Source: Geosiphon pyriformis
Lineage: Eukaryota > Glomeromycota > Glomeromycetes > Archaeosporales > Geosiphonaceae
Length of the DNA: 64,000 nt
Assembly (NCBI GenBank): GCA_016748015.1
Contig: JAAOMT010000484.1
Span: 37,847-101,846 of the forward strand
Reading direction: 5' to 3'
Part shown: positions 1,036 through 42,633 of the stretch, piece by piece
How the letters are laid out: every line of letters starts with the position of its first letter
Position numbering within the stretch: position 1 is the first letter of the stretch
Made by a program: the position numbers and the translations under genes
The notes under the pieces: generated by a model
What the model was told of the DNA's origin: nothing
The model's input: only the letters and a program-made list of their open reading frames with translations
The model's database searches: none

Positions 1036-2303
1036 GGGGATCAATGAAAGAAAGAGTTTTAATTGTTTTAATTAGTGACTTAAATAATATTAATATAAAT
1101 AATATAACAAAAACAAATAGTGTTAATATAAATAAATAATACTTGATAAAAAAACTGTTTTCAATATTAATAATTATAGTAAAATAAAAATAAATAATAT
1201 AAGTACTATTTTAAAAGCACTAAAAGTTAAGACTTAAATAATAATTATTAAGTTTTTAAATTAAATTAACTTTAATATTGTTGGTAATAATTTTAATATT
1301 TTTTTTTAAATTTTAATTTAACATATTTATAAATTTTTTTTTTGTTTTAAACATTAATTTTTTAGCAATTAAATACAAATTATTTTAAAATAAATTAAAA
1401 ACAATTTTTTAATTGTTTTTAAGTATGAATAATTTTAAAAAGTATTTATTTTCTTAAAATTTGGTAGAATAATTTGTACAACTTTTATTTTCAGATTTGG
1501 TATAATAAAAATTGTAGATTTAATTAATAATAATAATATAATAACAAATATTAATTTTAAAAAATTTATAAATAATTATATAAATTTGACTATAATATTT
1601 AAAAAATTTTTGATAAAAATATTAATAAAAACTAAACATATTATGTTATTTAAATTTGAAATTATTAAGTTATTTAAAATACAATTGATAAAACTATAAC
1701 AAAAAGCATTAATAAAATTTGATGATTATAATTAAACCAATTTTTTAACTTCTAAATAAATTATCTTAATTAAAAAAAAACACAATTTATATAATTAAAA
1801 CCAATATTAACAAATTTTTTTGAAATATTAAAAATATTGATAAAGTTTTGCTTTATATTTTGTCAATAAAAATAATTATAAATGATTTGAAAAATTTTTT
1901 AATATAATTAATTATTATTTTATTATATATATTTATATAAAATATAATATTATTTATATTAAATTTAATAAAAATTTGATTGTGACTTTAATTACAATTA
2001 CAATTCTTAAAAATTTAAATTTAAATTAAACTAAATTAAACTTATTTTTGTGTATAATTTGTAAAAAATTCAATTATATTTTTTTAATATATAAATTTAT
2101 TATAATATTATCTCTTAAAATTAAGATTAAAAATTTTTTTTCAAATTCTAATAAAAATAAATTTGTTATTATTTATGTTAAAAAAACAGCTTTTATTACT
2201 TAATTAGTGTTTTTTAATAGAGTATTTTGGATTTAAATAGTTAATAGTAATTATTTTAATGCTTTTTTTGGTTTATTTTTTGGAAGTTTTTTATTATTTA
2301 ATG

Positions 2304-2374
<71 letters not shown>

Positions 2375-2754
2375 CTGTTTTATTTGTAAAAAACTGTTCA
2401 AATGGTCTAAAATGTTTAGTAAAGCTTTTGTTAAATCAGATATTTGGAATTTTTTAACAAGTTAAATTTATTATTAGTTTTTTTTATTGTTTTTTAATAT
2501 ATTTAAAACTTTTATAGTAATTATCTGTATAAATATAGTTATATTTAAAGTTTATTTAATTTATTATTTTTAAGAATTAGTAGTTTAAAAGTTTTTATTA
2601 CTAAAATTAATAATTTAAAAAACTAATATTGGAATTTAAGAAGTTTATATATTGGTTTTGGTTTTTTTTCTTAAAAATTAATTTTATTTGAAAAATTACA
2701 ACATATAATTTTAAAAATATAAATGTTTTTATAAAACAAAATAATATTGTGCAT
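1036..2754. other. AT-rich gene-free stretch
   Basis: Very AT-rich sequence with dense stops in all frames. I see no recognisable gene or element, apart from the TTA microsatellite inside it. It may be a transposon decayed beyond recognition. Confidence 0.6.
2305..2374. repeat. (TTA)n microsatellite, about 23 copies
   Basis: An uninterrupted trinucleotide run of about 70 bp. Read on the plus strand it gives a run of about 24 isoleucines in a short open frame (2259-2465), which is not a real gene. Confidence 0.95.
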
Positions 2755-3469
2755 TATTATTAGCAGAAATTTGAGTTATAAATTAGCATAAATTTTTTTT
2801 TATAATTTATATTATTAATTAATATATACTATTATTTTAATTTATTATTTATTATCTTATTAAATTATCTAAATTATTATTTAATAAATAATTTAATTTG
2901 TAAAAAACACAAATATATTTTAGTTAAAATATTTTTTATTTGAAATATTATCTTAAATGCAATAATTAGTTATTATAAATTAATTCAATAAAAATTACTT
3001 TGAAAACTTAAATTTTTGATTATTACTGCTTTAAAATCAAATTTTTAAAACTAATATTTTGAAATTAATTAACTATTAATTTTAAACTATTAATATATCT
3101 AAGTCTAAATTAAAAACAATGTTTTAAATATACTTAATTTATTATTATTATTATTAAATAGTTTATAATCAAGATTTTTTGTAAAAAAGTTAATTTTTAT
3201 TACAAAATAACTACATATTATTTGAAAAGTTTACAAACAAGATTTTTTTGTAACAAAGTTGATTTTTATAACAAAGTAGCTATACAAAACAATTAACACA
3301 GAATTGGTTATTTTATTATAAACTTAAAAACATATATAATCTAAAGTATAAATAAATATTTTGAAAGAAAAATTGGCTTATTGAAGATTTATTAGTTTTT
3401 ATTAACAGTAAAATTAACAGCAAAACAGCATTAATAACATTAAAAAAGAGTAAAAAATTTCTAATAACA
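2755..3469 (+). mobile_element. LTR of gypsy family B, shortened copy
   Basis: Collinear with the LTR at 20481-21435. It begins TATTATTAGC, against TGTTACTAG in the better-preserved minus-strand copy at 63456. It passes through the paired blocks 'gtaaaaaagttga(t)tttttac/ataacaaa', and ends AATAACA. It is about 240 bp shorter than the full LTR, so it has internal deletions. No coding sequence of the same element abuts it; the next sequence resembles a hAT fragment. Confidence 0.6.
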
Positions 3470-3645
3470 ATAGAATTATTTAAAAATTTTTTATTAAACA
3501 GTATATATTACAATAGAAAAATATTATAAAAAAAAACAAAATATTTAAAAATATTACAAATTAATTAAAAAAATGTTTTAATAAATAAAATTGCTATTTT
3601 TTAGTTAATTTAACTAAAAATATACAAAATTGAAGATATTATCTT
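3470..3645 (+). mobile_element. hAT-related fragment
   Basis: About 170 bp resembling 27290-27470 inside the hAT element: both have 'aacagtatat(a/g)tta', 'aaaaatattataaaaaaa' and 'aaaaaaatgtttta' in the same order. It starts directly at the end of the preceding LTR. Confidence 0.4.
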
Positions 3646-5934
3646 TATTAACTATTTAATCTATATATGTATTATAAAAAATTAATCTGATTATTTAACA
3701 AACCACAATTCAAAAAAAATATACAAGATAAAATACTTACCTACAGCAATTTTTTTACAAAATACATTATAAAAAAAAAACTAAAAACACCAATGTTAAC
3801 AGTTTATTAAGAATAACTCAAGTTTAATCTTGCAAAATAAACACATTTATGTATCAATAATTATATTAATATCTGTTTATATTTTAGTTTAAGAATAAAT
3901 TATCTTAACAAGAACAAAGAACTATATAAAAACAAGTTTAGAACTATTATATTAATAAAAATATTAAAATTATAACACATCATAAAAAATCATAAAAAAT
4001 ACAAAAAAAGAAACAATATTATTTAACATGTATTTTGATCTAACTACTAAATATTTTAACAAAAATATTACTTTAAATAAAACAATAAATTTATACTATT
4101 AACCAATAATATATAAAAATATTTTTAAATATATTTATAACTATAACTTTTGTTAAAAAAAGAAAGAGCCAGAATAATAGAAATATTTTGATTTATTTTA
4201 GTTGATTTTTTTTTTAATAAAATCAAAATTAATTTGGTTAAACTTTTTTCAATTACTTTTAAAAGAAATTAATATATTACTATAATTATAAACTATCTTA
4301 CTAAATAATCAGAAGTCTAAGCCATTCAAGTTGTAAATATTAAAACAATAACTAAGTTCATATATTAAGCTTTAATTTGTTAACATAAATGCCCAAAAAA
4401 ATTATTATTTGATCAAAAAACTTATTTTGTTAATAATACTTTGGCAAAATTAAGCCAACAATTTGGAATAAAATAACTCTTATTATTTCTATATTATTTT
4501 TAAACAAACAGATTAATAAAATAATATAACCAAATATTGTGTAAAACTCTAACAAAAATAAGTTATAAAAATATGCAAGAATAAAACTTATTTATATTTT
4601 TAGTATTATTTATATACCAAATATTAAAACAAAATATTATTCAATTTATACTATTTAAATTAATATATAAAAAAAAACATATTATTTATTAAACTAAAAA
4701 TACTTTTTTTTTAATATAAACAATTACAAAAGAGAACTTTGAAGTTATTTTATATTAATAAATATATCAATTTATAGAAACACTAAAAAATAATCATAAA
4801 ACAACAACTAATAATATTATTAATTTTCAGAAATAACCGAAAAAAAACATAATAATTACTTATTAAACCAATCAGTTAAATTTAAGAATAAAAACAGAGT
4901 GTTGTTATATATACTAAAGCTAAAAAATAGTAGAATAGAAAATTTAATCTAAAATAGAATAGATTATTTTATATACACAAAATTTTTGACAATAAAGCTT
5001 ACAAACTACAATTAGAAAACAAAATTTTAAAGAAAGCCATTTATGAAAATTATTTAAAACTTTATTATATAATACAAAAATTATTATCAATTATATTTTT
5101 ATTAAAAACACAAATTTCATTAATCAAATCTGAAAATATTTTATGAGATCTAAAACCCATTATTATAATTAAATACAATTTATGTACAAAAATTTGAATT
5201 ATACAAATTAGACATATAAATACCAAAAAATAAGAGAGAAAAATTTAAAAAAAATCAAATTCAACATAGATTTTTTAAATAAAATCTTAAAACTTACAAC
5301 AATTGTTTAAAGTTATTCAACAATTCACAATATCAATAGAAATCACAATTAATAAAAAAAGATATAATATAAAACTATAAACAAAGAAAAGATAAACAAA
5401 AGTTTAACTAAAACTAAATGTTTTCAATCTTATATAAAATCAAAAAAGAAAAAAAAACACAAATATTCAAACAATCAAAAAAATCAAAAAAGCTTTAAAC
5501 AGCTTAATCATAAATCTTAACACTAAAAATTAATTCTTAAAACTTCCAAAATATGAAAAAAAAACTTCTATTAACATACTGGTTTTTTAAAATTAGCAAA
5601 AAACTAGATCTATAAATATTATATATAGATAATAATAAATAAATATTTAATAGAAAAGTTTTTAAATAAATAAATAAATTTGTTGAAAAAACAATTTAAT
5701 ACTATATTATAAAGCAATATATTAATTATACTTAATATTCAAATACTATTTAGCCATATTGTTAGACAATTTATTAAAAACTATTATAATTAACAACATT
5801 AAACAAATGACAAATTCTTAGTTTAAAGAACTACAAAAAGCAATATTTAATACCATAATTAAACAATATATTAAAAAAAACAATTTTCAAAGATATATAT
5901 ATTTTTGCAGAAGCTCAATTCTAAAAAAGAAAAA
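3646..5934 (+). pseudogene. Ty3/gypsy pol fragment (integrase to element 3' end), family C
   Basis: Conceptual translation with in-frame TAA codons shows an integrase core. One block reads IKINLVKL at about 4207-4235, where families have G-(I/V)-D-x-V-G-P-L, so the first catalytic Asp is Asn. A second at about 4391-4470 reads KCPKKLLFDQKTYFVNN, with the second Asp kept. Then comes TNRLIK, where the catalytic Glu is Lys. The tail near 4905-4980 matches the post-integrase segment of the B element (19350-19440). The last part, 5690-5934, matches the 3' internal end of the nested family C element (35240-35475) and leads straight into an LTR-C, so this is the 3' half of a family C element. It is not functional. 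Confidence 0.65.
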
Positions 5935-8143: not shown

Positions 8144-8150
8144 TTATGAT

Positions 8151-11100
8151 CTGTTTTTTTTATTTCTTTTTTGTACTTTTTTTTTATAAGTAATATATAT
8201 TTTTTTTTAATATTAAGCTTCATTAAAATTTTTATTTTGATTTAATTTTATTACTTTTTTTTCTAATATTGTATATTTGATTCTGGTTTTTAGGTCTTTA
8301 AATTAAAAGTTGATTATCTTTCCTTATTGGTTAATAGTTATTATTTCTATTTTTAAATACAGTAGTATTTCAAAGTAATTCTAAAATATAATATGTAATT
8401 AATAAATTGTTTTAATATATAGTATAAAACTTGTTTCCTTCTAATAAAGTCTTTAATTTGTTGCACTATTTGTTAATTGAATGTTTTTTTAAATTTATCT
8501 GTATACAATTCCTGAATATTCAATTTTTGTTCTAGTTAATAATAACAACATGTTCTTGGAAGTTGTTCTATTCATAATTTCTAATTTTTTTAGTCAATCT
8601 TTTTGTTAGAATAATATTTGGTATTTTTTCAAAAATGTTCTTTACTTTTTCTATAATTTTATTTGACAAGTGATTTGGTTGTTTTTTGTTTGTGTTTTAT
8701 AACAATTTATTTGGTAATTAATAATTATTTTTATGTTTAATTGTTGTTGATTTATTATCTAAAATAATTGTTGTGCCAATATGTAAATATGATCTGAGAT
8801 TTTTATTTTTTCTAATCACTTTTATTATATGTACTGGTTCTTTATATATTATTTTGGTAGCTTAAATTGTCATATTTGTTCAATAACTATGATTGGTTTT
8901 AAATTTTGTGAGATCTTATTTGGTTTAACTAATATTTGTTGTACTTCTAATTATAGAATATTATTAGTAAAAGATAATACTATATTGTAATATAATTTTA
9001 ATTAATTATTATATGCTGTTTTGGCTAAAATTTTGTTGTTCTATCTTAATTTATATGCTTTGTTTTTCAAAATTTCTTTAATATAAAATAAACTGTCATA
9101 TTTGGAGTCAAGTTTTTTATTTTATTGTTTTTTTATTTTGGTATAATATAAAAGTACTTTGTCTTTAATTTTAAATTCAATTGATTTGTTTGATAATTGG
9201 TTGTTATGTTATTTTTTTTTATTTTTTTTGTATTATTAACTGCTTTTTTTTTTTTTTCTAGTGTTTTTATTAAGTAAGAAATTTTTTGTAATAATGTTTC
9301 TTAACAATTGTTTTCTATTATTGGTTCTATTAAATATGTATAAATATTTATCTTTATTAATAGTATTGCTGTTTTATTATATACTAATTCAAATAGTATT
9401 GTTTATATAGTATTTTGCTTTATTGTTTAATAAGCAAATAGTATTAATAATATAAACAAATTTTATTTATTTTAGTTTTTTTGGCTGATTTTTACACAAT
9501 ATTTTATTGAATATTTCGACTAAGCTATTGGTTTATAAATAATATAAAAATAATAATAATCTTTAAATTCCAAATTTTTGACTTAATTTTGTTAATGTTT
9601 TGTTTACAAAGTAAGTTTTTTGGTCTAACAATAATTTTTTAAACATCTATATTGACAAATCAAATCTTAATATATAAATTTAATTATAAATTTTATATTG
9701 TTTTTTGAATGGCTTTAACTTCTGGTCATTTTGTAAAATAATTTATGACAACTGTTATATATTAATTGTTTCTGCTGGTTATTGTTAATAATCTGGTTAA
9801 GTCAATTTTAATTCAATCAAATAGTTGTCTTAATTTGATTGATCTTAGTGGTTTATGGGGTTTTGTTTCTTTTTTTTTTAATAAACATTACAATTTTGAA
9901 TATATTAGATAATATTTGAATATATTGATAGTCAATAATATATTTTTTTGGTTTTTTTTATAGTGGCTTCTTTATAAAAGTGTTTTGTTATTAGATCTAA
10001 GTATATGTTAAACAATATTATTTTTTTTCTGGTTTTATAATAACTCTAAGTGGCTGGTTTGGTTTTTTTCTGTTTTTCTAATATAGTATATTTTAGTAAA
10101 TAATAAAGTATTTTAATTGTTATTTTATGTTGTTTTGTTTTTTTTAAGATAATTTTTTCTTAAACTATTAGATATTAATATAATATTAGAGTTGTTAATA
10201 TTTTTGTATATTTATTTTTTGACTTATTTTTCTGTTTAAAATGTTTTTAAATTTGTTTTATGTATGATAAATTGTCAATATTTCCATTTTTTTTATAATA
10301 TACTGTATATTAAAATAACAATAATTCTATTTTCTATTAAACATGTTAATTATTTCTAAATTTTGTTTTTGAATCGATGTTAATTCTTTATAGTTAATAT
10401 ATACATCAAATTTCTGACTTAAATATTTATTTTATTTAATAACAACCCAATAAATAGTTAAATATTTTATTGCTAGAATTCTATAGTTCTTTTTAACTGA
10501 ACTTAAACTTTAATTAACATATGTTACTGAATATTCTTGTTTATCTAATCTTTATTGTAATAGTATAACTCTCAATACTTGACCAAATATATCTGTAGTA
10601 ATGATAAATAGTTTGCTATAATTTGAATAAATTAATATTAAAACCTAAATAAGCTTTTTTCTTAATGTATTAAAAGTTTTTGTTTATTTATATTTGGTAT
10701 TTTTTGCTTAGAGCTGATAAAGTAGTTAACTTACAAAAATTGTAAATAAATTATTAATAATACTTAACAAATTCCAAAAATGATTAGAGTTTAATAAAAT
10801 TAATAAGTATTAAAAAGTTTTTAACTATTTTAATCTTATTTGAATCTGTTTTAATACTATTTTTACCAATAATATATTTCAAAAACTTGAGTTTTGTTTT
10901 TCCAAAGAAATATTTAGTAGCATTCAATTTTGATCTTGCTCTTTTCAATCTTTTAAACACTTATTAGAAATAATAAAGATGATTATTAAATGTTTTGGAG
11001 AATATATTGGTGTTATCTAAATAGACTATTATTAATTTTTATAGTAATTCAGTATAAATAATTTTCATTAGCCATTAAAAAGTGACTGAAGTATTGGTTA

Positions 11101-11799
11101 AGCCAAAAGATATAATTTCAAATTCAAAGTTTTTTTCTTTAGTAGTGAATGCTATTTTTTTTTTATTTGCTGAATTTATGGCTACTTGTTAATAATTACT
11201 ATCTAAGTCTAATATAGAGAACTATTTCTTTCTTTTAAATATATTAAATAATTTCTGAATAAGTAGAATTAGATAATTGTTTTTGTAAATAATACTGTTG
11301 AGCTTTTTATAATTCACACAAAACTGAATCTTTCTATTTTTTTTTCAAACAAGTATGATTGATAATAACTATAGATTCATTAATAGTTGAATTAACTTAT
11401 TGTCTAACATATGATTAATTTTTTGATAAATAATTTTATGGCTTACAGATAATACTTAGTATGCTTTCTATTTAATTGGAATTATATCTTTAGTCTTAAT
11501 CTAATGCTAAATAATATTAGTTCTGCCAAATTTATTCTTATTTGTAAATATATTAGTAAAATTATTGAATAATAGCTTAATTTGCATGCATTAAAGTAAA
11601 TCTAAATTTTTTAAATTTATTTGCTCTAACTGTTTTAGTTGTAATAATAACATGAATTGAATTATAATTAGATATTTTATTGATATTGATGTTATTTTAC
11701 TTCAAATTATAGAAAACTATTTTTTGAAAAGAGGAGTAAAAGTAAAATAATTATTGTTAGCTACTGTTTTATTTGAGTTAAATACTTTTTTTGCTTTTA
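8151..11799 (-). pseudogene. Ty3/gypsy pol pseudogene on the minus strand (family C-like)
   Basis: Reverse-strand conceptual translation, reading through TAA/TGA, gives RT then integrase in gypsy order. RT is at about 11340-10950: FCVNYKKLNSI, then ILDLDSNY*QVA, then VYLDNTNIYS with YLDN at 11012-11026. The HHCC finger remnant (CNVCQ-like) is at about 9880. The integrase core begins near 9840 with IKIDLTRLL, keeping the first Asp. LLLDQKTYFVN (second Asp kept) is near 9640, and TNSLVEIFNK (Glu kept) near 9500. Integrase acidic residues thus survive here while the RT second Asp is Asn. Stops in nearly every line make it dead. Upstream of RT only about 450 bp are left before an LTR fragment, so gag and most of protease are missing. 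Confidence 0.7.
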
Positions 11800-11947
11800 A
11801 TACTCTCATTATATATATAATTTATATTATATAAGATTTTTTGGAATTCTGCAATTTTTTAAAAGAAATCCTAGAATTTTTTTTTTGCATTTTTTTCTAA
11901 TTGGCTATTTTACTTATTATTATAATTCCTAATTTCTATAAGTAATA
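11800..11947 (-). mobile_element. LTR-C fragment (5' part, minus orientation)
   Basis: Its reverse complement starts TATTACTTATAGAAATTAGG and includes 'atagccaattagaa' and 'gcagaattcc'. This matches in order the first 200 bp of the solo LTR at 61067-61896 (TGTTACTCATAGAAATATAGG ... ttagccaattagaa ... gaattcc). The rest of the LTR is missing, so a deletion joins it to pol. Confidence 0.5.
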
Positions 11948-12605: not shown

Positions 12606-12718
12606 TTTGGTGTTTTTTTAAAAATAACATAATAACAACTAAATTAAAATAATAATCATATTTAACATAATAACTTTAAAATACTATCAGTTAATTTACA
12701 CTTATTGCAAACAACAAT

Positions 12719-14160
12719 TTGGAATCTAAAATGGAATTACAGCTTTTAAGAAAACTTTTTTTTAATACATCAAAAATTAAATCAATAATTATTTTTTTGA
12801 AAACTATAATATTACAAGTCAAAAATAATTTTCTTGAAAACTTAATTTACTATTTAAATAAAAATTCAGAAGCTATTAGTGTTGACACTTATGCTATTTA
12901 TTTTGAAAAACTTGATTACAACAACATTAAATTTTGTAAAAAAAATACTTTACCAACTCATAATTTATTTTTAAACTTGAATTAAAACCAGAAACAAGCA
13001 ACAAAAGCAAATAAAAAACACCAAATCTGTTTACACAACTTCTAATACACCAAAAACATTATTTAAACATTTGAAAATACTTAAACAAAAAACAAATATT
13101 AAACTATTATTTTTAATTGCATTTTTTTTAGCTTTACTTACTTAAACATAAATACCAACTTTATTTTTAACCAATTTTTAAGACCAGAAGACTTTGTCAA
13201 AAGTTTTATTTAACAATTAAAACTAATCTATAATAATATTAATTTTCTTGATTATTTAACTAAAAACCAAAGTAAACACTCAAAAATTTTAGCCAACAAA
13301 AAAAAAAATAACAAAAAATATATTAGTAATAATAAAAATAAAAAAATAGTTATTACTTATATTGCAAAAATCTTTAAATTTTTAAATAAAAACTTTAAAA
13401 CCAGTTTTTAAAAGTGGCTTAATAAAGTCATCAAAGCTAGAAATGTTAATAGATAAAATATAGCAAAAATACTAAAAATTTTTTTTATTTTTTACAAAAA
13501 ACTATAACTAAATGATTCAAAAACTTAATAGTATCTTTTACTAATTAGCAAGTTTTTAAAACTGCTTTTTTTAAACAGTTTACTAACAACATTTTAATTA
13601 TTCTCTAAAATCACTTTCAAAATATTAGACAGAAACTAATTAAATCTGCTATGATCTATTTTAAGAAGTTTAACAAACTTTTTTGAAGAATTAAACAGTT
13701 GAAAAACAATAACTACTACTTAAATGCTAAATTATTGAATCAATTTATTGCTGGACTAAAAGATAAACTTATTAAAAAAGTTTAATCATATGTATTTAAA
13801 AATTTAACTATTATTAAAGCATATGTTAAAATTACAAAATGACAATAGAAAAAACAAACTATATAAAGCTTGTTAATTTTATTATTAGTGAAAACAACTT
13901 AATTACTAAAAAAAATTGACCAACTTATAAAAAAAGTTGAAATCTACTTTGCTAATTAACAATAAAAATATTAACTATTTTAATAATAAAATTTAAGCAC
14001 TTTTTTATTATTATCTAATTTTAATAATTAAATTTATTAATTAAACTGTCATTATTGTAAAATATCAAAATACTGGAAATTTAATTGCTAAAAAATGCAA
14101 TAAAACCTACAACAATAAAATAATTAACATTATTTTTTATTCCAATAACAATTATATAAA
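12719..14160 (+). pseudogene. gag pseudogene of element B with zinc knuckle remnant
   Basis: An 88-codon open stretch at 12719-12985 starts at TTG, not ATG, and reads ESKMELQLLRKLFF at its start. The translation then continues with frequent TAA codons. At 14047-14088 is a CX2C-X4-Y-X4-C array (C-HY-C-KISK-Y-WKFN-C). This is the retroviral-type CCHC zinc knuckle with His replaced by Tyr (CAC or CAT read as TAC), so the finger is destroyed by a C-to-T change. That places it as the gag C-terminus. Confidence 0.55.
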
Positions 14161-14399: not shown

Positions 14400-17300
14400 A
14401 ATATTCAAAGACCAGAATTTTTACCATACTGTACTTTCAAAAAATAAAGTTATAGGACAACAGTAAAACTTTTTTTTCAATTACATTATGGTTTTATTAG
14501 TAAAAATTATCAAAAACACCAATATTTTAAACATATTTTCATTCGAATTTGAAGCAAATAAATTATTTTTTTTACTTAGCAATACAGCAGCTTTAGAACA
14601 AAAAGCAAGTACAATAATATACACCAAAACTAAAGTTGAAAAAGAATTAATTTAGTTAATTTTAAATAGTGAATTTGTTAGAAATATTATTATTTATTAG
14701 TTAATATAATGATTAAAAAAAATATTAACAAGTCTGTCTAAATAGTGATTATAATTGTCAATAGTATAAAAAAGATATCTGTAAAAAAAATTAATAATTT
14801 TTTTTTATAGTTAATAGAATCACTATTTTAGTTAATATTTTTATTATAAATGTATCTTAATACTAAGTTCTTGTTAAAAATGATAAATTTTTTAAAACCA
14901 ATACAAATTTAAATTAAAAACTCAAGAATTAAAGATTTTATATTAAGATCAATATACTAAAGTACTAATTATATATAATACTTTTAACAAATAATTTAAA
15001 AAAGCCCCAGTTTTTGAATTTGAAAATAAAAATAAAATACTTATTATCGAAACTTATATAATACTCAACTTTTGGTCTAATTAAATTGAAGAAACAAACC
15101 AATTTTTTGAGATTTTAGAATCACAATTAATATTATTATAGTTTAAAAAATCTAGTTAACAATTAATATTAACAATAACAAATAAACAGACCAATAGTTA
15201 ATATGTTTTATACTTAAAAACACAACTTAAAAAACAATTAACTTATATTCCATTTAAATATAAATATTATAATAAAAAGTATTCATCCATAAAAACTTGT
15301 ATTTTATTTGAAAAAAAAATATAAAAATTGCATTTGTTACTATTATAAAGTCTGCCACTAAAAATAATTTGGTAGCCAAAAATAAAATAGAAAATAAGAC
15401 AACACATTTTGTTTTACATACAAAAAATTATTGTTTAAAGAATATAATTAAATTGATATTGTAATAAATAAAAAAGTCTGCAATTAGATCTGTTAATATG
15501 TTCTTTTTATTTTTAAGAAAGTAAAATAAAAAACTTTATTCACAACCACTTACAATAATGCTCTTAACAAACTTTATTATTATTCATACAATACTAAAAT
15601 AATTTATAAATTAATAATAGTTTTAATTAATGGAAAAACTTAAACAGATATTTACTAAATAAAAAAATTTGAATATATTAAATATATAATAGAATTAATT
15701 AAATTTAACAATGAAAATAAAGTAAAATTTTACTATTTAACTTTTGATTATGTTTACTTTTTCAAAAACTCAAATTTAATAATTAAAACAAATAAACATT
15801 CAATTATGTGAAAAATATATTATATTTTGTGATAACATATAATATCTCAAATATTATGCACTTAGCATACTATTATTAATAGAAGATAACCAAAATAAAA
15901 TAAAATTTAAAGAAATTAAAAAAGTTTCAACAATTCTAATTTACTTTACCAAAAACCAATTTGTTTTACTTTTTAAATACTTTGACAACAATAAGCAAAA
16001 AATTAAGCCAGAAAAAGCTTACAAAATTAATGCAGAATATGATATTTGATATTTAAGCAAAAATATTTTCACTTTAAAGCCAAAATTACTTACAAAAATT
16101 AACTTAAAAATTGCTCTTAAAATTTTATCAAAAGCAATAATACAAATTGTTTTCTGATCATTATTAACAAACAAAGAAATTAATATTAAAAAAAGAATTA
16201 TGAATATTAGATATACTAAAAACATTACAGTAATACTTCAAAATAAAACTGAAAAGCCATTTAAAATCGAATATGCTAAAAAAATTGCTCAAGCTATTTA
16301 TTTACTCTTAATCAATATTTTGGATTTGCAATTAATTAAAAATTGAAAAAAACTTGATAAAAGTAAAAAAAAACTCAAAGTTTTGGATTAAATAGATAAT
16401 TTATAATTTTAGTAAATATAGTTCTCAATATACAAAATAAATTTTACCAAATTTTTAGATTATTAAGAACAATTATTATTCTTTTTTTTAAAAAAGTTTG
16501 TAAAGCATACATTTGTTTAACACCTATTATCATTTAACAAATTTTTAAATCAAATAAACAAATTTGCAAAGAAAATAGAATTTCAATTTCAAATATTTAT
16601 TTGTCTAAAAAAATCAAGAAATTTAATATTATATTTTACAACTTTAATAACCACATTATTATATTAAATAATTATTTTAAAATTAAAATTATTTACAATA
16701 ATATCTTTTAACAAGAGTTATCATAAATAGTTTTAAATTTTACAGAAATAATTAAAGATTCTCTTGCAAAATTTAAGTTACATCTTAGTACTAAAAACTA
16801 TTATATTATTATTAAAAAATTATTTCGAATCAATATGGAATAGTTAAAGTCACAACAAAAAAAAATTTAAAGAATTAATTACAGAATATGCAAACATATT
16901 TACCAAATATAACAATAATTTAAGAACTAATTTAGTTTAGCATTAAATTTATACTAAAAATACAAAATCAAAATGCCAACAAGTTTTTTGAGTCTTATTT
17001 AAAAGCCATCAATTTATCTGAAAAAAAATTTAATATATATTTAACAATAAATTTATTTAACTATTAATAAGTTCCTAAACTTTACTAGTAGTTTTCATTA
17101 AAAAAAAATAAAAAAACCCACTTTTGTGTTAATTATTATCAACTAAATAGTATTACAATTAGAAATATTTACTTTTTATTCTAAATTAAGAACATATTCG
17201 ATATTCTTAACAAATCAAAATACTTTTCAACATTGAATCTAGAAAATAAATACTAATAAATTGTTATAGATCTCAAAAACTGTTTAAAAACAGCTTTTAT

Positions 17301-19450
17301 TACCCAAGGAAAAAATTAGAAGTTCAATATAATGCTTTTTAAATTATACAATACATCAACAATTTTTAAAGACTTATAAATATTGTTTATGTTAAACTTC
17401 TTTAAAAGTCAATAGTTGTTTATTTAGATAATACTAATATTTATTCATTATTTAAAACTTATTTAGTTTATCTGTAAAAAGTTTTTTAATGATTATAAAA
17501 AGCAAAATTAAAGTTAAATATTAAAAAATGTTATTTTGAAAGAATAGCTTGGCCTTTTTAGATTATATTGTCAACAAAAAAGAAATTAAATCTAATTTAA
17601 AAAAATTAGTATTATCAAAAATTTCAACTTTTTTTAAAACACTACTGAATTAAAAAAATTCACAAAATTAATATTCTATTATCGAAAATTTATTAAGTTT
17701 TTTTGAAATTGCCAAATCACTAAATTATTTAATTAACAAAAATATTAAATATAAATAAATTCCAAAACAACAAAAAGCCTTTAATATTTTCAAAAAAAAG
17801 CTAACAATAGCTTCAATTTTAGTTTATTTTAACTTTAACAAAAGATTTCAACTAGCTATAAATACTTTATATACAGTTTTTAGTGCTATTTTATTTTACT
17901 TAGATAATAATAGCAATAAATAAGTAATGCTTTATGTCAATAAAACATTAAAACTAGCAAAAAAAATTACTCTGTTACTAAACTAAAAACAACAGTAATA
18001 ATTTGGGCTTTTTACTATTTTAATTTATATTTTAAACCAAAAAAAATTGATATTATTATTGATAATATTAAACTTAAATGACTACAAAATAAGAACTCTA
18101 AATTAAATATCAAACAAATCTGTTGAAATAAATTTTTAGCAAATTATAAATATATTGTATACTATAAATTAAAAAAATTATATACAAATATTGATTGTCT
18201 TTTCAAATAAGACAAAATTAGAAATTACAATTATTATTCAATTTAATAAACAATAATAAACAATAAACATTAGATTCCAAAAACTACAACAATCTTAAAC
18301 AATATTTGGTAATATTTATTATATTAAAAACTTGGTTTTCAAATAAAAAACATTAATTATAATACTAAGCAAAACAATATTTTCTATACAATAATTTTAT
18401 TTATTACCAAAACTACAAAAACCAAACAATTCATTCAAAGTAATCTAGAAACATAAAAAAAAACAATTTTATATAATATATATTTAGATCCTGTATTAAT
18501 GTACTTTAAAAAAAATAGCACAATTCAAAGAACACTAAAACATTATTTTTGGCCCCAAATAAAAAAATATATTTACCAATATTTTGAATTTTGTAATAAT
18601 TGTCAAAGAAAATAAAAACCATATTTTACAGAATCTCTAAATTTAATTGAAATTAAACAATCTTTTGATTAAATTGGTATTAATTTAGTTAGACTACTAT
18701 CTATTACAACTCAAAAAAATTAATATATTGCAGTTATAGTAGATTATTTAACAAAATGGCCAAAAGCAAGAGTAATTCAACAGACAAATGTAAAATTAGT
18801 TGCAAATTTTATTTACAAAGACATTATTTGTAAACATAAATGCCCAATTGAATTTTTATTTAATTAAAAAACATATTTTGTAAACAACTTAATACAAAAA
18901 ATTTGTGAATAATTTAATATTAAGAGATTTTTATTTTGGCTTTATTATCTATAAACAAATAGACTTATAAAACGTTTTAACAGAACATTTTGTGAATTAT
19001 TAGCCAAAGTTTTAATTAGTTTTGAACAAAAATAAGATCTTTTTATTTCATTAATGTTACTAGTATATAGAACTAAAACAAAATACAATAAAACATATGC
19101 TATTTAATTTAATTTATGATAAAACAGCAATATTACCAATTAATTTTACAGTAAAACTCTATTTAGTTTAATTAATTATTAAAAACAACTTTGTAAAAAC
19201 ACCATAAAAAAGAGCCTACACATTTTATAATACATTAAAAAAAAATAATGAATTGCAGTTATCTATATAGAACATTTTAAGCTTAATAAAAAAACAATAT
19301 AACAATAAACTATTACCAGCTATTAATAAATTTAAAGTTAAAAACAAATTTTCTTATATAAATTAAGGCTAAAAAACAAGAGAGTAGAAAATTGGATCAT
19401 AAATAAAATAAACCATTTTACATACACGAAATTCTAAGAAATAAATTATA
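14400..19450 (+). pseudogene. pol pseudogene of element B (RT, RNase H, integrase)
   Basis: Reading through stops, RT lies at about 17120-17480: FCVNYYQLNSITIRNIY, KYFSTLNLEN, KTAFITQ, and VYLDNTNIYS with YLDN at 17421-17432 instead of YLDD. RNase H follows (about 17760-18100). The integrase HHCC finger and core are at about 18480-19080. The first catalytic position is Asn (18682-18684, in FD*IGINLV), the second is Asn (18862-18864, in LFN*KTYFVNN), and the Glu is Lys (18970-18972, in TNRLIKRFNRT). The chromodomain-like or post-integrase segment ends near 19440. All three DDE residues and one RT Asp are lost, each by a G-to-A change, so the protein is inactive even without the stops. Confidence 0.75.
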
Positions 19451-25322: not shown

Positions 25323-26340
25323 CTTATCAACTGGTTTACTATTAAAAATCTTAGAACTTTTGAAAAAAACAGAGACAACATTGAAATTAATCTAAATATG
25401 TCTCTTTGAGAGAACTTTAACTGATGAAAAACCAGCCACAAATAAAAAAAATGTTTTAGTGACCACTAAAGACAGCTTTTCATTATTAATATCTAAAAAA
25501 AATATAGTTAAGACATTATGTCTAATTGTTTTAATAACAAAAAGACCCTTTTACATTAAAACTTTATTAGTTACTATAGAAAAAATAATGAGTACAGCTT
25601 TTTTACTCTTTGTTTTAATTGTGATTATAAAATTAAGAAGACAAAAAGTATTTTTTTTAAATTTTAATCTATTAATTTTATATTAAATCAACTTTTTATT
25701 AGTTTTATTATAAATAATAAATTTTTTTTTCTTTGTTTTAATATTTTTATATATATATTTATTTATTATAAAAAATTAATTTTAATTATATTATTTTTTA
25801 TTATTATTTTTTTAACAACTAATTAAAAAAATTCTGGTTTAATTTTAATATAATAGTTTTGGGTTTATTTGGTAGTTTTAATTGTTTTTTATGTTTTTTA
25901 TAAACATTAATTATTATTTTTTAAATAAATTCTAAACTGGTTCTTGTTTAAAAACAAACAATAATAATTTTATAAATTTTTTATTTTATAAATATTTTAT
26001 AATAATCGTTTTTTCTTTTATTTGTACATTGTAAAAAAAATCTATAAAATTATATTTATACTATAGTTAAAACAACAATAATACATAACATTTATATTAT
26101 TAATTAAAATTATTAATATTTAAAAAAAAAGTACTTAAATTTATAATTTTAAAATAGTAATAGTATTTATATTAATTATTTCTATTTTATTGTTATTGTT
26201 TAAACCAAAAATTATTTTTTTTACTAAGTAATTTTTATTTATATTAACATTTTTAGTATCTGTTATATTATTTATATTAGTTTTATTTATATTATTAATT
26301 ATAGTAATTATTACAAAAAAAACCAATATTATTATTATTA
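25323..26340. other. AT-rich stretch with no recognised gene
   Basis: The first 100 bp probably still belongs to the decayed LINE. A 75-codon plus-strand open frame at 25459-25686 has no features of a real gene. Nothing else can be supported. Confidence 0.5.
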
Positions 26341-26344
26341 AGTT

Positions 26345-26722
26345 TCAAAAAAAACACTTTTTTTCTTTTTTTTAAGAAAAGTTTATTAATAAAACCAGTA
26401 TTCAAACTTTTAAAACTTTTATTAGAATTTAATATATTATTTGATTTAATAACAACTGTATAGTCAAATAAAAAAAATGTAAAAGTATTAAATTAAATAT
26501 TAAAAATTTATTATTAAAAAAAAACTTATTTTTAAGAAATAACTTTTTTAAAAAATTAAAAACATGAAAAAAAGAAGTTTTTAATTTTATAATTAATTGT
26601 TTTAAAATTTACAAGCTTAATTAAAAATAATAAAATTAATTAATTATTAATTTTAATAATAAATTAATTATTTTAAGTTTAAATAAAAATATTTTTTTTT
26701 ATTTTTTTATATTATTATAGTT
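26345..26722 (+). mobile_element. Possible left half of a split LTR-B
   Basis: The stretch 'aattaattaattattaatttt...ttattttaag' followed by a T-rich tract and 'tatattatta' resembles the middle of LTR-B (20960-21120). The missing right half may be at 40767-41017, on the far side of the hAT and family A elements. The match is weak because both copies are almost pure A/T. Confidence 0.35.
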
Positions 26723-26949: not shown

Positions 26950-29900
26950 TTGTTCATTAATTATTATTTTGTTTAATTACTATGATCAGTTAAAGAAATA
27001 TATAAAACTATGTATATATAATAACTCTAGTCTTCAACTTACCAAAATGAATTCATTGTTGATATTATCTAATATTATTAAAGATTCAAAATCCAAAATA
27101 ATGGAATTTAATAATCCAAATAGTCTAAATATTAATATATTTGGTAAATATAGTTTTTAAAATGAAGTATAAAACTATTTTAATAAATTTAAGTAAACAA
27201 AAAAAACAGCTAAATATATAATCTTAAAATATGTACATAAATCATTTTTTTGCAAAACTATAAGCACTACCAAACTCTTATAGTGTCATTTAGAGACTTT
27301 TTACTGAACAGTATATGTTATAATAAAAAAAATATTATAAAAAAAGACAAAAAGTCTAAAAAAATTGTGAGTCGATTAAAAAAATGTTTTAACAAATAAG
27401 ATTGCTATTTTTTTTATTATTTTTGGCCAATCTAAATAAAAAACTGTTCTAGTTTTATATAGTAACTGTTATTAACATTGATAATGAAAAACTTTATAAC
27501 ATGATTACTATTTGGTTTATTAACTATTAGCAACTATTTTTTACAGTAAAAAATTCTGAATTAATCAAAATATTTCAATATTTGAATCTTATTTCTTAAA
27601 CTGTTTGTGTTAATACAATTAAAAATAAAGTTATAAAACTCTATGTTTTTGATAAACAAAAATTAAGAGTAAACACTACCTTTATTATGAAATGTTCTTT
27701 TTTGTATTTATACTTATAATATGATAAGTATATTTAAGTACTATTAAGTTCAAAATTTTTTTTACGCCAAATTTTTGGATATTTTTAATAATAAAGCCTT
27801 TGTTTTGTTATTACTTATTATATTAATAACAACTGAAATTTTCAACAAACAATAATTGATTTTGGATTAATAAGTAAATAACATGATAGAATAAATATTG
27901 TAAATAGATTTTTTAAAGTATTAAAAAATTATAAAATTACATTAAAAATACATGTACATATATATATTTTTACATGAATTTAGATTAATTAATGGCCAAT
28001 AATAAGATTGGCATATTACACAGCATATTAGTATTATTTAAGACTCAGAATTATTATAGTGTCTATATTATTGAAAATTGCATTTTCTTAATATTGGCTT
28101 AAGTTGGTTTTCATTATTGCTTCAAAGCTGAATTTTCAGCATTAGCATTATTTAAGGCTCAAAGTTACCACAATATTCATATTATTGAAAATTGTGTTTT
28201 CTTAATATTGGCTTAAATTGGTTTTTATTATTGCTTCAAAGCTAAATTCTTAGTATTAGTATTATTTGAAACTTAGAGTTACTATAATGCTTATATTATC
28301 AAAAATTATATTTTCTTAATGTTAGATTAAATTGGTTTATATTATTGTCTCAGAGCTGAATTATTAATATTAGTATTATCTGAGTCTCAAAGTTACTATA
28401 GTGCTCATATTATTAAAAACCACGTTTTTTTAATATTAGTTTAAGTAGTTTTTATCATTGTTTTAAGCCGAATTTTCAACAAAAAAAGTTTAAGAAAGAG
28501 TTACACTTACTCTCTTTTTATATGAGTTTATCATTAATTTTTTTTTGACAGCTTCTTGTTATTATTCTTAATAATATTACAAATAATAGTATTTTTATAA
28601 AAGAGTTAATAAAAAAATTAAAAAAGAAAAATATTCAATGAAACTTAGAAGATTTTTGATTTTGATGCTTTGATTATATTCTAAACTTAGCAGTACAGGC
28701 GACTTTAGATAAAATAAAGAATAATATTTTTAAGATATTTGTTAAAAATCCAAACTAAATATATTTACTTAAAATTTTCTTAATATAAACTTTGTATAAA
28801 TTAAAGATTAAAAAACTTAACTCTACAATTCATATTTTACTCCAACGTTTTAAGCTCTTTAAATGTGCCTGTAATGTATGTCAAATTAAATACTGTAAAC
28901 TTATTCTGGATTGTCTTATCCAGTGAAATTTTATTTATAATATGGTCAAGAATAGATTATCTTTTAAATTAGCAAATTATTTATTTCTGATTCTATATAT
29001 TTTGAATACAAAAATTTTAACTGTAAATTTATAGACATTAAACATCCCTACTAATACTTATATTAATCTTTATTAATATGCTATTTCATATAATTAGTGG
29101 GCTGTTTTTGATAAAATTGCTAAATTTCTTGAAACATTTAAGAATATTATGATTAAAATATTAGCCAATTCAAATAATACTGTCTTTTCAATTATTTTTC
29201 TCTTTAATATTATTTTTAATCACATCTAAGACACAGTTGATGATAATAAATCTGGTAAAACATTATAATCTTAATTGTATTTATTTAGTTATTTATTTTA
29301 CATATTTAATATTAAATCTATTACTTATTACAATGGCTAAAGCAGCAAAAAAAAAGTTGGTTGAATATTACTCTAAAACAAATACAATTATAATGCTCTG
29401 TACTACATTAGATCTAAGCAAAAAATTTTATTATTTCACAAAAAGAAAATTTTTGGATAATAATATTAATAAAATAAAAGAATTATAAGTTATTAATTTA
29501 TTTAAACAGTTTTATTTTCTAACTTTTATACAATAAATAAATCTTTAAAATATATATTCTCTTTAAAACAAAGTATATATTAAATATTATACCAACATCA
29601 AATGACAGTTTTTTGTTAAATAGCAATTTTAATAATACTATAATTACACAATTCATATTAAAGACAGACTTTAACAATAATAAGAAAAAAAAACTTGACA
29701 AAATTAATTATTATATTTCTGAAAAGATGGCCAATAAAAATATAAATATAATGACATAGTAAAAGACATATTATAAAAAATATTTATTTAAATTAATATT
29801 TTATTAATAATTTGATATTTAAGCATATTAAACACAATTTTTTATTTTGTATATATGGTTTATAATTATTTGGCAATCCAAAAATTATTTGTTGCTTCTG

Positions 29901-30435: not shown

Positions 30436-30448
30436 AATTTTTAATAGC

Positions 30449-36441: not shown

Positions 36442-39400
36442 GCAATAAACTATTGTATTTTTTTAGTGATAAATACATGTTTTGTTTAATCTATTACAAA
36501 GATTGGAAACTAATTAACTTGATATCTTAAGAAAAAATAAAAGAAGTATAGAAGTTTTTTAAAAATAAACCACTAAAAATACAATTATTAATAATAAAAC
36601 AAAAAAAACTCTTTTTAGAAAAAAAAATAGACATTGAAAATTTGTTGACTAAAAATAGTTCAGTTATTTCAAAAAAAATAATATTTTTAGACATTTTTAT
36701 GTAATACAACATATTATTACTATTAGAGAAATTTGTTCTATTCATTTGAAGTCTTATCAATTCAATTAATACAATGATAAATTCATTAAAAAAAAATAAA
36801 CCAGATGAAAAATCTTGAATTCATACAAGAAACTAAAAACAAATAGGCTTTTTCAGTTGTAGTAATATTCAAAAAAGATGAAATTCTATGTTTTTGTATT
36901 AACTACTGCCAATTAAATACTATTACTAAAAGAAACATATATCTATTTCTCAAAATTAATGCAATACTAAATCAATTTAATAGTGCTGTTTTCATTTCAA
37001 CTATTGATTTAACTGCTAAATTTTGACAAATAGAGGTGAATTCAGAAAATAAAAAAAAACTGCCTTTATTATTAAGTATAGTACTTACAAATTTACAGTT
37101 ATATTTTTGGTTTTGCTAATGCTTTTTTTACATTTTAATATTTAATAGACAAAGTATTTGAATTAATAAAAAAAACTTTTGTTCTGGTTTATTTAGACAA
37201 CATAATAGTATACTCAAAAATTTGAAATGAACATCTTGAATATTTACAAAAAATTTTTGATTTTCTTAGAAATACTGGCCTTAAGATTAACTCAATTAAA
37301 TTTTTTTTTAAACATTAAACTACCTAGTTTTTTAGACATTTTATTACAAAAAATAAAATCTTCTCTAATTTAGCCAAGATTAAAAAGATTTAAAACATTA
37401 AACAATCAATAAATATTCATAAACTATACTCTTTTTTTGGTTTAGCATTTTATTATCACAAATTTGTCAAAAATTATTTCAAAATTGTCTTTCCACTTAA
37501 TTAGCTATTCAAGAAAACTGTTAATTATTATTAAAACACACATCAACAAAAAGTTTTTAAAACTCTAAAAAAAAACTAATTATTAAGCCAATTTTCAAGC
37601 AATCTAATCTAGATTATTCTTTTTTTTTTATACTAATGTATTTGGCTTTAAACTTAGTGCTATCTTATTTCAGAAAAATAAAAATGAAAAAAAACATAAT
37701 ATAGCTTATGTTAACAGATTTTTTTCTTCAACAAAACAAAATTACTCAATTATTAAACAAGATTATTTAGCAATAGTATGATTTACCAATTATTAGAATA
37801 AGTATTTTTTGGTATAAAGTTTTTGGTAGTAATAGATCACCAAGCTTTGGTTTGGCTATATAACAAAAAAAACTTGAATACAAATAGATAACTTGTTAAA
37901 TACTCTACCTGAATAAATTTGATTATAATATACAATATTATAAAAAAGCTTATTATCAAAATACTAATACTTTTTTTAGACTTATTATTTAATAATAATA
38001 CAACCTTTTCAAACCAAACCAATCTAATTATTAGTAACTTCTTCTTAAACAATTACAATAATAGACTTAAACAACTATTCTGTTTTAATAAAATTTTTGG
38101 GTAAAAGACAATATTTATTAAACTACACTTAACAGCAAAAAAAACATTTATGTAAATAATTAAATTTCTATTTAATTTGCCAGAATCAACTTTATAAAAG
38201 AAATAAAAAAGATTCTAACTGTTCTTAAAGAGTTATTAAATTTGAAGAAAAAAAAATTATAATCTATAACATATATATTAATTCATTACTTAGACACTTT
38301 GAAAAAACAAAAACAATTCAAAAAATTTTTACTTACTATTATTAACCTATTTTAAGAAAAAAAATTGCTGAATACATCAAAACCTATAATATCTGTCCAA
38401 AAAAAGGAAAATTCAATTGCAAAAAATACATCTATTTAATCTTTGTTGGTTAATTATTTGACAAAATTGGTATAAATATTATTGGATCTTTAATTATAAC
38501 TTCTAATAACAATAGATATATTATTACAGCTACCAACTATATTACAAAGTAAATAAAAACAAGAATTATCTCAAATCAAACAGCAATTTTTATTGCCAAC
38601 TTTACTTATAAAGATATTATTTGTTATCGTGGCTGTTCCAAAAAACTTTTATTTAATAGAAAAAAAGTTTTTTTCAATATATTAATTAAAAAACTTTGTA
38701 AAAAAATGAGAATATCTTATAAATTTTTTTTCTTATAATCCTTAAACAAATGGCTTAATAAAATGTTTCAATAGAACACTATGTGAAATCTTAACCAAAA
38801 CCAATAAAGAAACAAACTTATAGAACAAAGTACTATTTTCAGCTTTTTTTGCTTATAGAACTGTAAATTATAACATAACAAGTTATAAACTCTTTTATTT
38901 GTTCTATAAACAAATGGCAATACTACTAATAGAAACTAATATTAAAACAATATTTTTTAAAAAAATTACAATAGAAAATTACAAAGACATTTTGCAAAAA
39001 AAACTTGATACCATTCTTGACTTTTTAATAAAAGCATGAATAATTGTCTTTAAAAAGATAAAACAGATTCAAGAAAAGCTTAAGAAAAAAAAAACTTTTA
39101 AAATACTTTCTTAAGTATTAATAACTTGGTTTTAAAATACTGTTTAAACAGAAACAATATCTATAATAATAAATTTTTTAATCAGTAGAAAAAATTTATT
39201 ATAGTTAACAAAGTTTTGAACAATGGTTTTTATATCTTATAAGATTAATATAGAACAATCTTTAAAGATTATCTTGTTTATGATATATAACTTAAAAAAT
39301 ATTACAAATGACCTGATTGGTTACCTGTTATGATAATACTAATCCAAATAATTAGCAAAAATCAGATATAAATAAATGTATTATTCTCAAAACAAAGATA
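36442..39400 (+). pseudogene. pol pseudogene of element A (RT, RNase H, integrase)
   Basis: RT is at about 36855-37220: FSVVVIFKKDEILCFCINY, STIDLTAKF*QIEV, then after a frame change GFANAFFTF and VYLDNIIVYSK. YLDN is at 37190-37201 where families have YLDD. RNase H is near 37560-37800. In the integrase core the first catalytic position is Asn (38475-38477, IGINIIGSL), the second is Asn (38655-38657, LLFNRKKVFFN), and the Glu is Lys (38761-38763, NGLIKCFNRT). Stops and at least one frameshift are present. The same four catalytic losses occur in element B. Confidence 0.75.
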
Positions 39401-40032
39401 TTTTTAATTGATATAAACAATTGTTTTCTGGATTAAAACATTCAAAATGTTTTCTATACTTTCTATAAATATTAAATTAAAAATTATTCAAACACTACTT
39501 TGACTATTAAAAAACAGATTATAATAATTAATAACAATAAAATATATACTATTATTAGACCTTAAAAACCACTATCAGAAAAGAAAAAATTAGTAATAAA
39601 ATAGATAAGTATCTGTTAAAAAACATAACAGTAACAATACTTATACTTTCTATTACAATTGGAAAAACAATTAAAAAAATCTTGTTTATAAACAAAAACT
39701 TGTTATATAAAAGATAATTAAAATTCTATGGTTGCTTTGATAAAATTATAGAAGATATAAAGCTCAGGAAAAAAACAACTTCAGAAATACAAATAAAAAT
39801 TTTGGGTATTATATAATTAGATGTTTAAGAGTTTTGACTATTATAAAAAGAGCCAAAACTTTTATACAAAAATTTAGTTTCTTGAATACAAAGCTTATTT
39901 TATCTTAGTTATTATATATTTTATCTATAAAAAACTTTACCAAATTAATTAATTTCAAATTAAACAAAATTTTTTAATTAAATTATCTCATACATTGATT
40001 TTGCCAAAGCTTAATTTCTTTAAAGAAAATAA

Positions 40033-40766
40033 TATTATGATTAAAAATTATAGTTTTTATTAATTATTATATATATTAACTATTGATATCATATAATTAG
40101 CCATTTTATTTTTAAATAATAATTAATAATCTAATTATTGACCTAATTATTAACTTAATCATTGATCTAATCATTAATCTGATTATTGACTTAATCAATG
40201 ATTTGGTTATTAACTATTTTTAATAGCTATATAAGTAATAAGTTTCTTAACTGCAAAAAAACATGATCAAAGTCAATAAAATAAAACCCACTATCAATTA
40301 TTTTCTCTTATATTACTTATTTTTTTTTTCTACTTTTAAGTATTTAAATATCTTAAAATAAAAGATTACTTGTTGGCTTTTACATATCTTATTTTTTCTT
40401 CTTTGTAATTTGTATTTGTTAGAATTAGCCTAAAAAATAATTATTTGTTCTTATAATTTATTGAATAAAAAAATGATTAAAAAACACAATGATATCTGTT
40501 ATTAATTTTAAGAATTGTTAAGTTAAAACATAGAATAATAACAGCAGTATTATTTTGTTGACAATTACAGACTATTTTTTTATTTTCAAATTCAAAAAAA
40601 AAATTTGTGATTATAATTTTTATAAAATTAATCACACATATTGAATTCTTACTTATTTATTTTACTAATTTACTCTTTTATTGTAATTTTCTTTTTAATT
40701 AATTTTATTACTCTACAATCTTGTTTTTTTTTGCTATCTATTAGCTTATTATACCAACTTATAATA
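40033..40766 (+). mobile_element. 3' LTR of element A
   Basis: Begins TATTATGATTAAAAATTATAG and ends CCAACTTATAATA; collinear with the 5' LTR over its full length, with the TATA box at 40228-40235. Confidence 0.7.
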
Positions 40767-41017
40767 ATATTATTAAAAAGTTTATAATTAAGATTTTTAT
40801 AAAAAAAAATATTTTTATAACAAAATAAAAATTTTTAATTTTTATAATAAAATAATTACACAAAATAATTAAGACAAAATTAACTATTGTATTCTAAATT
40901 TAACAGCATAAATAATTCAAAATATAAAAATAAACTTTGAAAATAAACAAACTTATTAAAAATTCAATAATTTAATATTAATAATATAAAAAAAAACAAT
41001 TAAAATCTTTAATAACA
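40767..41017 (+). mobile_element. Right part of an LTR-B
   Basis: 'aagtttataattaagatttttat...' to 'aaaatctttaataaca' matches the last 300 bp of LTR-B (3160-3469 and 12330-12605). Element A therefore seems to have inserted into an older family B LTR. Confidence 0.5.
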
Positions 41018-42580
41018 ACTTACTAAATTATAATTAACAATAAAAAACATTTACAAAAACAATTAAATTTTTATTTAATTTGCTAAAACTAATTAATTAA
41101 TAAAACCAAAAAAAAATTTTAATTGAAAAAATATATATAATTTAAGAAAAAAATATAATATCTAATATATATATAAATTTTTTAACAAGTTATTTTAAAA
41201 AAACAAAAATAATTTAAAAAACATTAACATAATATTATTGATTAATCTTAAAAAAAATATAACAAATTATATACAACTTATAATATTTGTTAACAAAAAA
41301 ATAAATTTAATTAAAAAAAACATTTATTAAATATTTATTAATTAAATTTTAACAAAATTAAAATTAAAATTATTAAATTTTTAATATTAATATTTAATAA
41401 AAACTAATATATTATTACAATTACAAATAATTTTACAAAATAGATAAAAACAAAATTAAACAACAGTTTAAACAAATAATTATTTAGTTTTTAAAACAAT
41501 TTTTAAGAATAAATAACTTAAATTATTCAAAAAAAATATTATTATAGCAATTCTGTTTAACTTATATTTAAATACAGTTTGAATAATTTTTTATATTAGA
41601 AAAGTTAAATAAAACAGCAGTAATAATAAAATTATTTTAATTTTAAAAAAGTATAACATTTAAGTCTTTTATTTAACAATAACTTATTAATTTTTATTAT
41701 TAAATTATAACCAATTTTAATTTTGTTATACTGTGTATTTCTAAATTGTTTTTTATTAATTATTAAAAGTTTTATTTTTAAAATGTATTTGCTATTATCA
41801 AATTTTTTAAATTTTTAACAAGCTTGAATTTTATTAATTACATTTATAATATTTTAGCTTTGTTATTTTTCTTTTATAGTTATTTTAAACCTACTTTTAT
41901 TAAAAATATATTTTGGGCAAAAGGTTTTAACTTTTTTTTGAAAAATATAGAATAGTTATAATAAATTTGAATAATCAATTAAAAAAATTAATTACTTTAT
42001 GATAAAATATGTGCTTTAGTAACTTTTATTTTTAGTAATTAAGAGAAATTTATTTTTAATTGAAATTAATTTGTTTAACATTTTGACATTTGCAAATGTT
42101 GAATTGTTTTAATTAATTTGATCAAAAATATTTTCAAAAATTAATCTGAAATAAACTTTGCAGTTTTTATAATATAATTTAGCATTAAAATATGCAACAA
42201 AAGCAAAGCCGAACCTTTCGTTAACAATTTCTTTATAAAGTAAAATAAATATTGTATGTAATATAATAGAATAAAACGTGGCACTAAAAGTTATCAAGCA
42301 TAATTTACTCAACAATCTGCGCAACAGGGCTGATTATTTATGTATCGCGGACATAAATTTTGAGTGACATAAAATTTGGAAAATATCAAGCTATGAATTT
42401 GAATGAATATTCCAAGTTCCTAGGGTAATATTGTGCAAACCGTGTTTACATTTTCAATTTCTGATATTTTTATGTGATATTTCTCACTTCCTTTTGTCAT
42501 GGCGCATCATGTTTCATTTTGAATAATGAGTTCAGAAAAATTCTTTTAATTATACATGCTAATTCCACAAGAAACGCGAG
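41018..42580. other. AT-rich transition, with a gypsy pol scrap, to the gene island
   Basis: 41034-41280 resembles 38125-38380 of element A ('aaaacatttac.aaa.aattaaatttttatttaatttgc'), so it is a worn RNase H-integrase linker fragment. From about 42150 the AT content falls towards the gene island. A 71-codon minus-strand frame at 42109-42324 has no support as a gene. The last part is the downstream region of GLE1. Confidence 0.4.
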
Positions 42581-42633
42581 GTTATTGAAAAGATGTGTTA
42601 ATAGGCTTATCTGAGGCGGATGAATTCAATTTA

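Follow-up and report, generated by a model that had tools for sequence, protein, structure and literature searches.

C-to-T decay of Ty3-type retrotransposons in every sequence context, with genes spared, in the fungus Geosiphon pyriformis

In Geosiphon pyriformis, a fungus of the Archaeosporales, transposons decay by C-to-T mutation in every sequence context and genes are spared. The decay is plain in a 64,000-nucleotide stretch of contig JAAOMT010000484.1 (hereafter the window; part of contig C277 in the numbering used here), whose broken Ty3-type retrotransposons were compared with relatives within the 124.7 Mb, 406-contig assembly of the same genome. The evidence comprises this one genome, one pair of duplicated genes and a few transposon families, all of the Ty3-type superfamily. 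The preferred explanation, to which we give a probability of about one half, is that transposons are silenced by cytosine methylation and that the methylated cytosines then mutate to T over many cell generations. A preliminary description of the window, made from its letters, had placed it, as probable, in the Glomeromycotina, and rightly so: the 18S gene, located by pattern search, gives one-mismatch matches to AML1, AML2 and SSUmAf2, primers for arbuscular mycorrhizal fungi.

The window falls into compartments with sharp limits. Its content of G plus C (GC) is 0.35-0.46 over the first kilobase, up to about position 1,000; from about 1.0 to 42.1 kb it lies mostly between 0.08 and 0.25, almost without CpG, and at the edges of the gene island that follows it changes within 250-500 bp. 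The published assembly of the species has 129 Mb, 64% repeats and 29.25% GC (PMC9453076). Decay at 1-42 kb and 58-61 kb, with a spared gene island between, had been described before, and base composition (o/e, observed over expected) bears this map out:

1036-42200, no strand: tract of decayed transposons, AT-rich and CpG-less, GC 0.17, CpG o/e 0.10-0.11
3834-5140, plus strand: decayed remnant of a Ty3-type integrase region (tblastn with the intact relatives L068 and L064, E 3e-67)
8909-11260, minus strand: decayed Ty3-type reverse transcriptase, RNase H and integrase remnant (Pfam PF17919, E 3e-12, and PF17921; tblastn), with RNase H at about 10414-10686 and integrase zinc binding at about 9866-10018
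14047-14088, plus strand: zinc-knuckle remnant CHYCKISKYWKFNC, with Tyr in place of His at 14071
15700-19562, plus strand: decayed Ty3-type pol (Pfam PF00692, PF17919 and PF17921; 47 genomic matches), with dUTPase at 16008-16358, RNase H at 17762-17965 and integrase zinc binding at 18454-18612
37103-39362, plus strand: decayed Ty3-type remnant of RNase H (37620-37814) and integrase (38247-38402) (Pfam PF17917 and PF17921; tblastn to L067, E 8e-133)
42200-57900, no strand: spared gene island, with a glycerol kinase gene among others, GC 0.37, CpG o/e 0.91, GC at four-fold sites 0.36
58000-60500, no strand: second AT-rich tract, GC 0.07-0.13, whose sequence recurs in many places at 71-80% identity

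In reading frames that stops interrupt, Pfam recognizes three domains of Ty3-type retrotransposons (dUTPase, RNase H and integrase zinc binding), and the pol at 15700-19562 is matched elsewhere in the genome by copies that are 71-80% identical to it. The coding remnants of the window align over 2,938 codons with intact relatives in this genome, and there 96 of the 142 stops stand where the relatives have Gln (50 of 178 codons), Trp (27 of 42) or Arg (19 of 150); stops at Lys numbered 11 in 292 codons, and those at every other residue five or fewer. The replacements fit C:G to T:A change as well, with Glu turned to Lys at 88 of 173 codons, Asp to Asn at 75 of 142, His to Tyr at 47 of 79, Met to Ile at 25 of 40, Val to Ile at 59 of 135 and Pro to Ser or Leu at 63 of 115. 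This pattern is far beyond chance, and it upholds the earlier reading of Gln codons as TAA or TAG, Trp as stop, Asp and Glu as Asn and Lys, and the zinc-knuckle His as Tyr. An alternative genetic code in which TAA and TAG stand for Gln was considered and is ruled out, since a single C-to-T rule also governs the shifts at codons for Trp, Arg, Glu, Asp, His, Met and Pro. The dUTPase domain of the element at 15700-19562 (PF00692, E 6e-6) lies upstream of its RNase H and integrase. Within the same AT-rich tract, the stretch at 23500-26600 has a core GC of 0.23, is poor in CpG and has few stops on both strands; it is possibly a younger element of a kind not recognized here, and a Pfam search of its minus strand gave no match.

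Young copies show the direction and context of the mutations. Candidate integrase matches run to thousands in the genome, and many of them lie in open frames; the young, mostly open copies have a GC of 0.33, a CpG o/e of 0.21 and a CpA o/e of 1.36; this loss of CpG with an excess of CpA is the footprint of CpG methylation. Seven young copies form a near-star set about 8% apart, in which a singleton change, all other copies agreeing, was scored as derived and alignment columns were counted. There C>T makes up 205 of 262 singleton changes, which is the C-to-T excess that family alignments had been expected to reveal. The rates per site per copy are 0.040 at CpA, 0.052 at CpC and 0.046 at CpT, set against 0.0034 for T>C, so that in this cleanest family non-CpG C>T runs at 12-15 times T>C; transversions at C sites number five. 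Two further young families agree with this spectrum, although their deeper branching pushes up the T>C rate, and with the families pooled the C>T rates per copy-site are 0.066 at CpA, 0.073 at CpT and 0.076 at CpC. No CpA preference appears in these pooled young families (p 0.22 against CpT, p 0.16 against CpC). The preliminary description had argued that not all sites are CpA, and this stands: C>T is not tied to CpA, and changes of Trp to TGA are expected of a context-free process. As for the dinucleotide preference that it had proposed to look for in alignments, CpG and TpC are raised and CpA is not. A truncated-binomial estimate per copy puts C>T at CpG at 0.355, as against 0.077-0.101 in the other contexts, about 4-5 times faster, and at TpC the pooled rate is 1.7-fold that at ApC (p 1e-10).

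Old copies, those of the window included, tell the same story. Where four young relatives all have C, a set of fifteen decayed copies reads T at 53% of CpA, 61% of CpC, 58% of CpT and 70% of CpG (30 cells); by 5' base, the share falls from 72% after T and 63% after C to 46% after A and 41% after G, and T>C stands at 2.2%. The dinucleotides left in the AT tracts give o/e values of 0.10 for CpG, 0.77 for TpC and 1.69 for GpC. Each copy carries C>T and G>A changes in similar numbers, and no strand runs or clustering of C>T changes were found in the copy alignments, which points to a process that works on double-stranded genomic DNA rather than in bursts. This strand symmetry speaks against an APOBEC-like single-strand cytidine deaminase that edits retrotransposon cDNA during reverse transcription, since such editing would fall on one strand; some deaminases do favour TpC in a similar way, yet the idea is extremely improbable. 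A genome search with APOBEC_N gave no match, but control genomes were silent too, so it shows nothing; the search with FAS_N had no match in this genome or in the controls.

Could the whole genome simply drift towards AT, while selection or GC-biased gene conversion holds up the GC of the gene islands? AT-rich genomes are the rule among the Glomeromycota, whose mean GC is 27% (PMC11134847). However, the young-copy rates predict an end point of about 7% GC, a level that the most AT-rich stretches reach, whereas the exons of the island have a four-fold-site GC of 0.358 (n = 547) together with the high CpG o/e listed above, and every 100-bp stretch of the island has a GC of 0.19 or more. The second line of evidence is the one pair of gene duplicates, L003 and L005, copies of a methyltransferase gene that are about 89% identical over about 1.1 kb and lie about 30 kb apart on one contig, one of them adjoining an AT tract. 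They differ by 50 transitions (31 and 19 by direction) and 22 transversions, a transition to transversion ratio (Ts:Tv) of 2.3 with no C>T excess, although this is a single pair on the same contig and gene conversion is possible. A transposon pair, by comparison, differs by 242 transitions and 18 transversions (Ts:Tv about 15; Fisher p 7e-7); the comparison omits the pair L041/L062, whose ends do not align. The contrast is conservative because purifying selection should raise Ts:Tv in genes, and it means that genes and transposons differ in the very spectrum of their mutations. Plain genome-wide AT bias, one of the alternatives left standing by the preliminary description, is thus disfavoured and very unlikely; the other, cytosine methylation with deamination, fits better than RIP (repeat-induced point mutation).

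The genome encodes several enzymes that could take part. Its PF00145 matches resolve into DNMT1, two DIM-2-like genes, two DNMT2-like genes and the duplicated gene L001/L005. DNMT1 is L004 (E 4e-56). The top PDB match of exons of L002 is Neurospora crassa DIM2 (E 5e-13), with DNMT1 next (1e-11), and L006 likewise has N. crassa DIM2 as its top match; a BAH domain scores above the cut-off in L002 and below it in L006. The structure of N. crassa DIM2 is PDB 9BAP (PMC11315935). The DNMT2-like genes, classed by motif, are L007/L008 (C307) and L070 (C346:422414-422635), the second of which carries PPCQPYTRGGKG...LENV. The duplicated cytosine-5 methyltransferase gene (L001/L003 at C318:788-790 kb and L005 at 819-822 kb) has the ENV motif and could not be assigned to a fungal class; its nearest PDB matches are a bacterial enzyme and DNMT1 catalytic domains. 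Motif VI reads ENV in every PF00145 match in which it is readable (L001, L002, L004, L006, L007 and L070). The Masc1/RID enzymes have EQT or EET at this position (PMC6709928), and neither was found among the readable matches, although a genome search is no proof of absence. Of the RID or DIM-2-like methyltransferases to which the preliminary description had pointed, then, the DIM-2-like kind is present in two genes and the RID-type motif does not appear in those that can be read. Three Pre-SET histone methyltransferase matches were also found in the genome.

RIP in the strict sense would be a mutation that homology sets off in any duplicated DNA, in this case with a relaxed context and an enzyme other than RID. 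It would account for the mutation of repeats beside spared single-copy genes and for the heavy C>T burden of each young copy, and RIP beyond the Dikarya has been proposed in Entomophthorales (PMC10515909). The RID-dependent RIP of N. crassa also leaves C:G to T:A changes confined to repeats, broken transposons and AT tracts of about 16-17% GC. The likeness ends there: N. crassa tracts at 16% GC have a TpA/ApT of 1.59 and a substrate index of 0.44 (PMC6714961), whereas the Geosiphon tract, at 17% GC, gives 1.08 and 1.01. These two indices, proposed in the preliminary description as a gauge of RIP, are thus near neutral; only 2 of 80 tract windows pass the RIPper thresholds, and the RIP composite index, uninformative alone, is near zero. 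Geosiphon shows no CpA bias, no RID-type enzyme was found in it, strand-coordinated runs are lacking, and the one pair of duplicated genes, about 89% identical, appears to have been spared. Of the earlier proposal of RIP-like or deamination-driven decay, a C-to-T process acting on transposons therefore survives and strict RIP is not supported; we regard the latter as distinctly unlikely. MIP (methylation induced premeiotically) in Ascobolus immersus, which depends on Masc1, offers another likeness in that it would target the cytosines of repeats in all contexts, but Masc1 has the EQT motif not found in Geosiphon, and MIP is a reversible methylation of duplications, whereas the one duplicated gene pair of Geosiphon looks untouched.

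The preferred account is methylation followed by deamination. As in vertebrates and plants, where 5-methylcytosine deaminates at CpG, CpG is depleted in transposons and not in genes and DNMT1 is present, and CpG mutates fastest, which fits ordinary deamination of 5-methylcytosine. In a relative, Rhizophagus irregularis, transposons are methylated at CpG (PMC8647823). The first and fastest component, at work already in lineages that still transpose, would then come from CpG methylation of the DNMT1 type and subsequent deamination. Unlike in plain 5-methylcytosine deamination at CpG, a strong non-CpG component is needed as well, since CpG loss alone cannot bring GC from 0.33 to 0.17. Cytosines of all other contexts would mutate at about a quarter of the CpG rate, on both strands and slightly faster after T, until a copy stands at 7-17% GC. 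We infer that this component could come from non-CpG methylation that the two DIM-2-like enzymes lay down at a low level, with H3K9 methylation as the probable guide, and the odds that non-CpG methylation lies behind it are about even; alternatively, the DIM-2-like enzymes themselves may be mutagenic. In Zymoseptoria tritici, Dim2 drives mitotic C>T mutation in methylated repeats, more than 98% of it at CpA and with CpG spared (PMC8016269). Geosiphon shares the C>T changes in transposons and the presence of DIM-2-like genes, and a gradual mitotic course may likewise be shared, but in Geosiphon the base 3' of the cytosine makes little difference, apart from CpG, which decays fastest.

The main rival dispenses with non-CpG methylation: late-replicating, poorly repaired heterochromatin would deaminate more and be mended less, a compartment-wide AT bias to which CpG methylation adds the CpG part only. 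Non-CpG C>T is nearly context-free, unclustered and strand-symmetric, as in slow chemical decay, and the predicted equilibrium coincides with the level of the most AT-rich tracts. Nonetheless, for DNA without methylation a non-CpG C>T/T>C ratio of 12-15, as seen in the cleanest family, is high; spontaneous deamination would not be expected to favour TpC; and the island boundaries are sharper than replication-timing domains. As the source of the non-CpG part such a bias is possible, if somewhat doubtful. Several points weigh against the methylation explanation. Most of the non-CpG data would be just as well predicted by this heterochromatin bias. The Dim2 mutator of Z. tritici is specific to CpA and the Geosiphon decay is not, the mild TpC preference is without explanation, and L006 is nearly tied between DIM2 and DNMT1 over the short exon compared. 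The genome search for the HP1 chromo-shadow domain found no match, although equally silent control genomes make this uninformative.

A bolder version of the methylation account would see here a context-independent, repeat-targeted C-to-T mutator without a RID enzyme in the Glomeromycotina, driven by DIM-2-like enzymes during clonal mitotic growth and analogous to RIP. This is unlikely, but if true, the mutator would be invisible to index-based surveys and might account for much of the AT-richness of the genome. According to a report cited in PMC8647823, RIP signatures had gone undetected in the arbuscular mycorrhizal fungus Gigaspora margarita and in Mucoromycotina, and in a survey of the whole kingdom, mutation signatures enriched in repeats were nearly confined to ascomycetes (PMC12543289). 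Geosiphon lives in soil and stands near the base of the mycorrhizal lineage. In this member of the Glomeromycotina, transposons are destroyed to the GC depth of Neurospora RIP tracts, in a context so flat that indices built on CpA give a neutral score; "no RIP" from dinucleotide indices is not the same as "no C-to-T defence". Were such decay general in the group, it would help explain the mean GC of about 27% and the two-compartment structure of these genomes.

The window also contains several tandem repeats. A 114-base unit is repeated four times at 28026-28478, within the AT-rich tract, and a 108-base coding repeat, its two copies 98% identical, lies in a Glu/Ala-rich open frame on the minus strand at 44027-44231. 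Past the second AT tract stand short minisatellites with 39-base and 23-base units (61138-61250 and 63731-63815), and the DNA around them has a GC of 0.25-0.33 and is poor in CpG (o/e 0.18-0.32).

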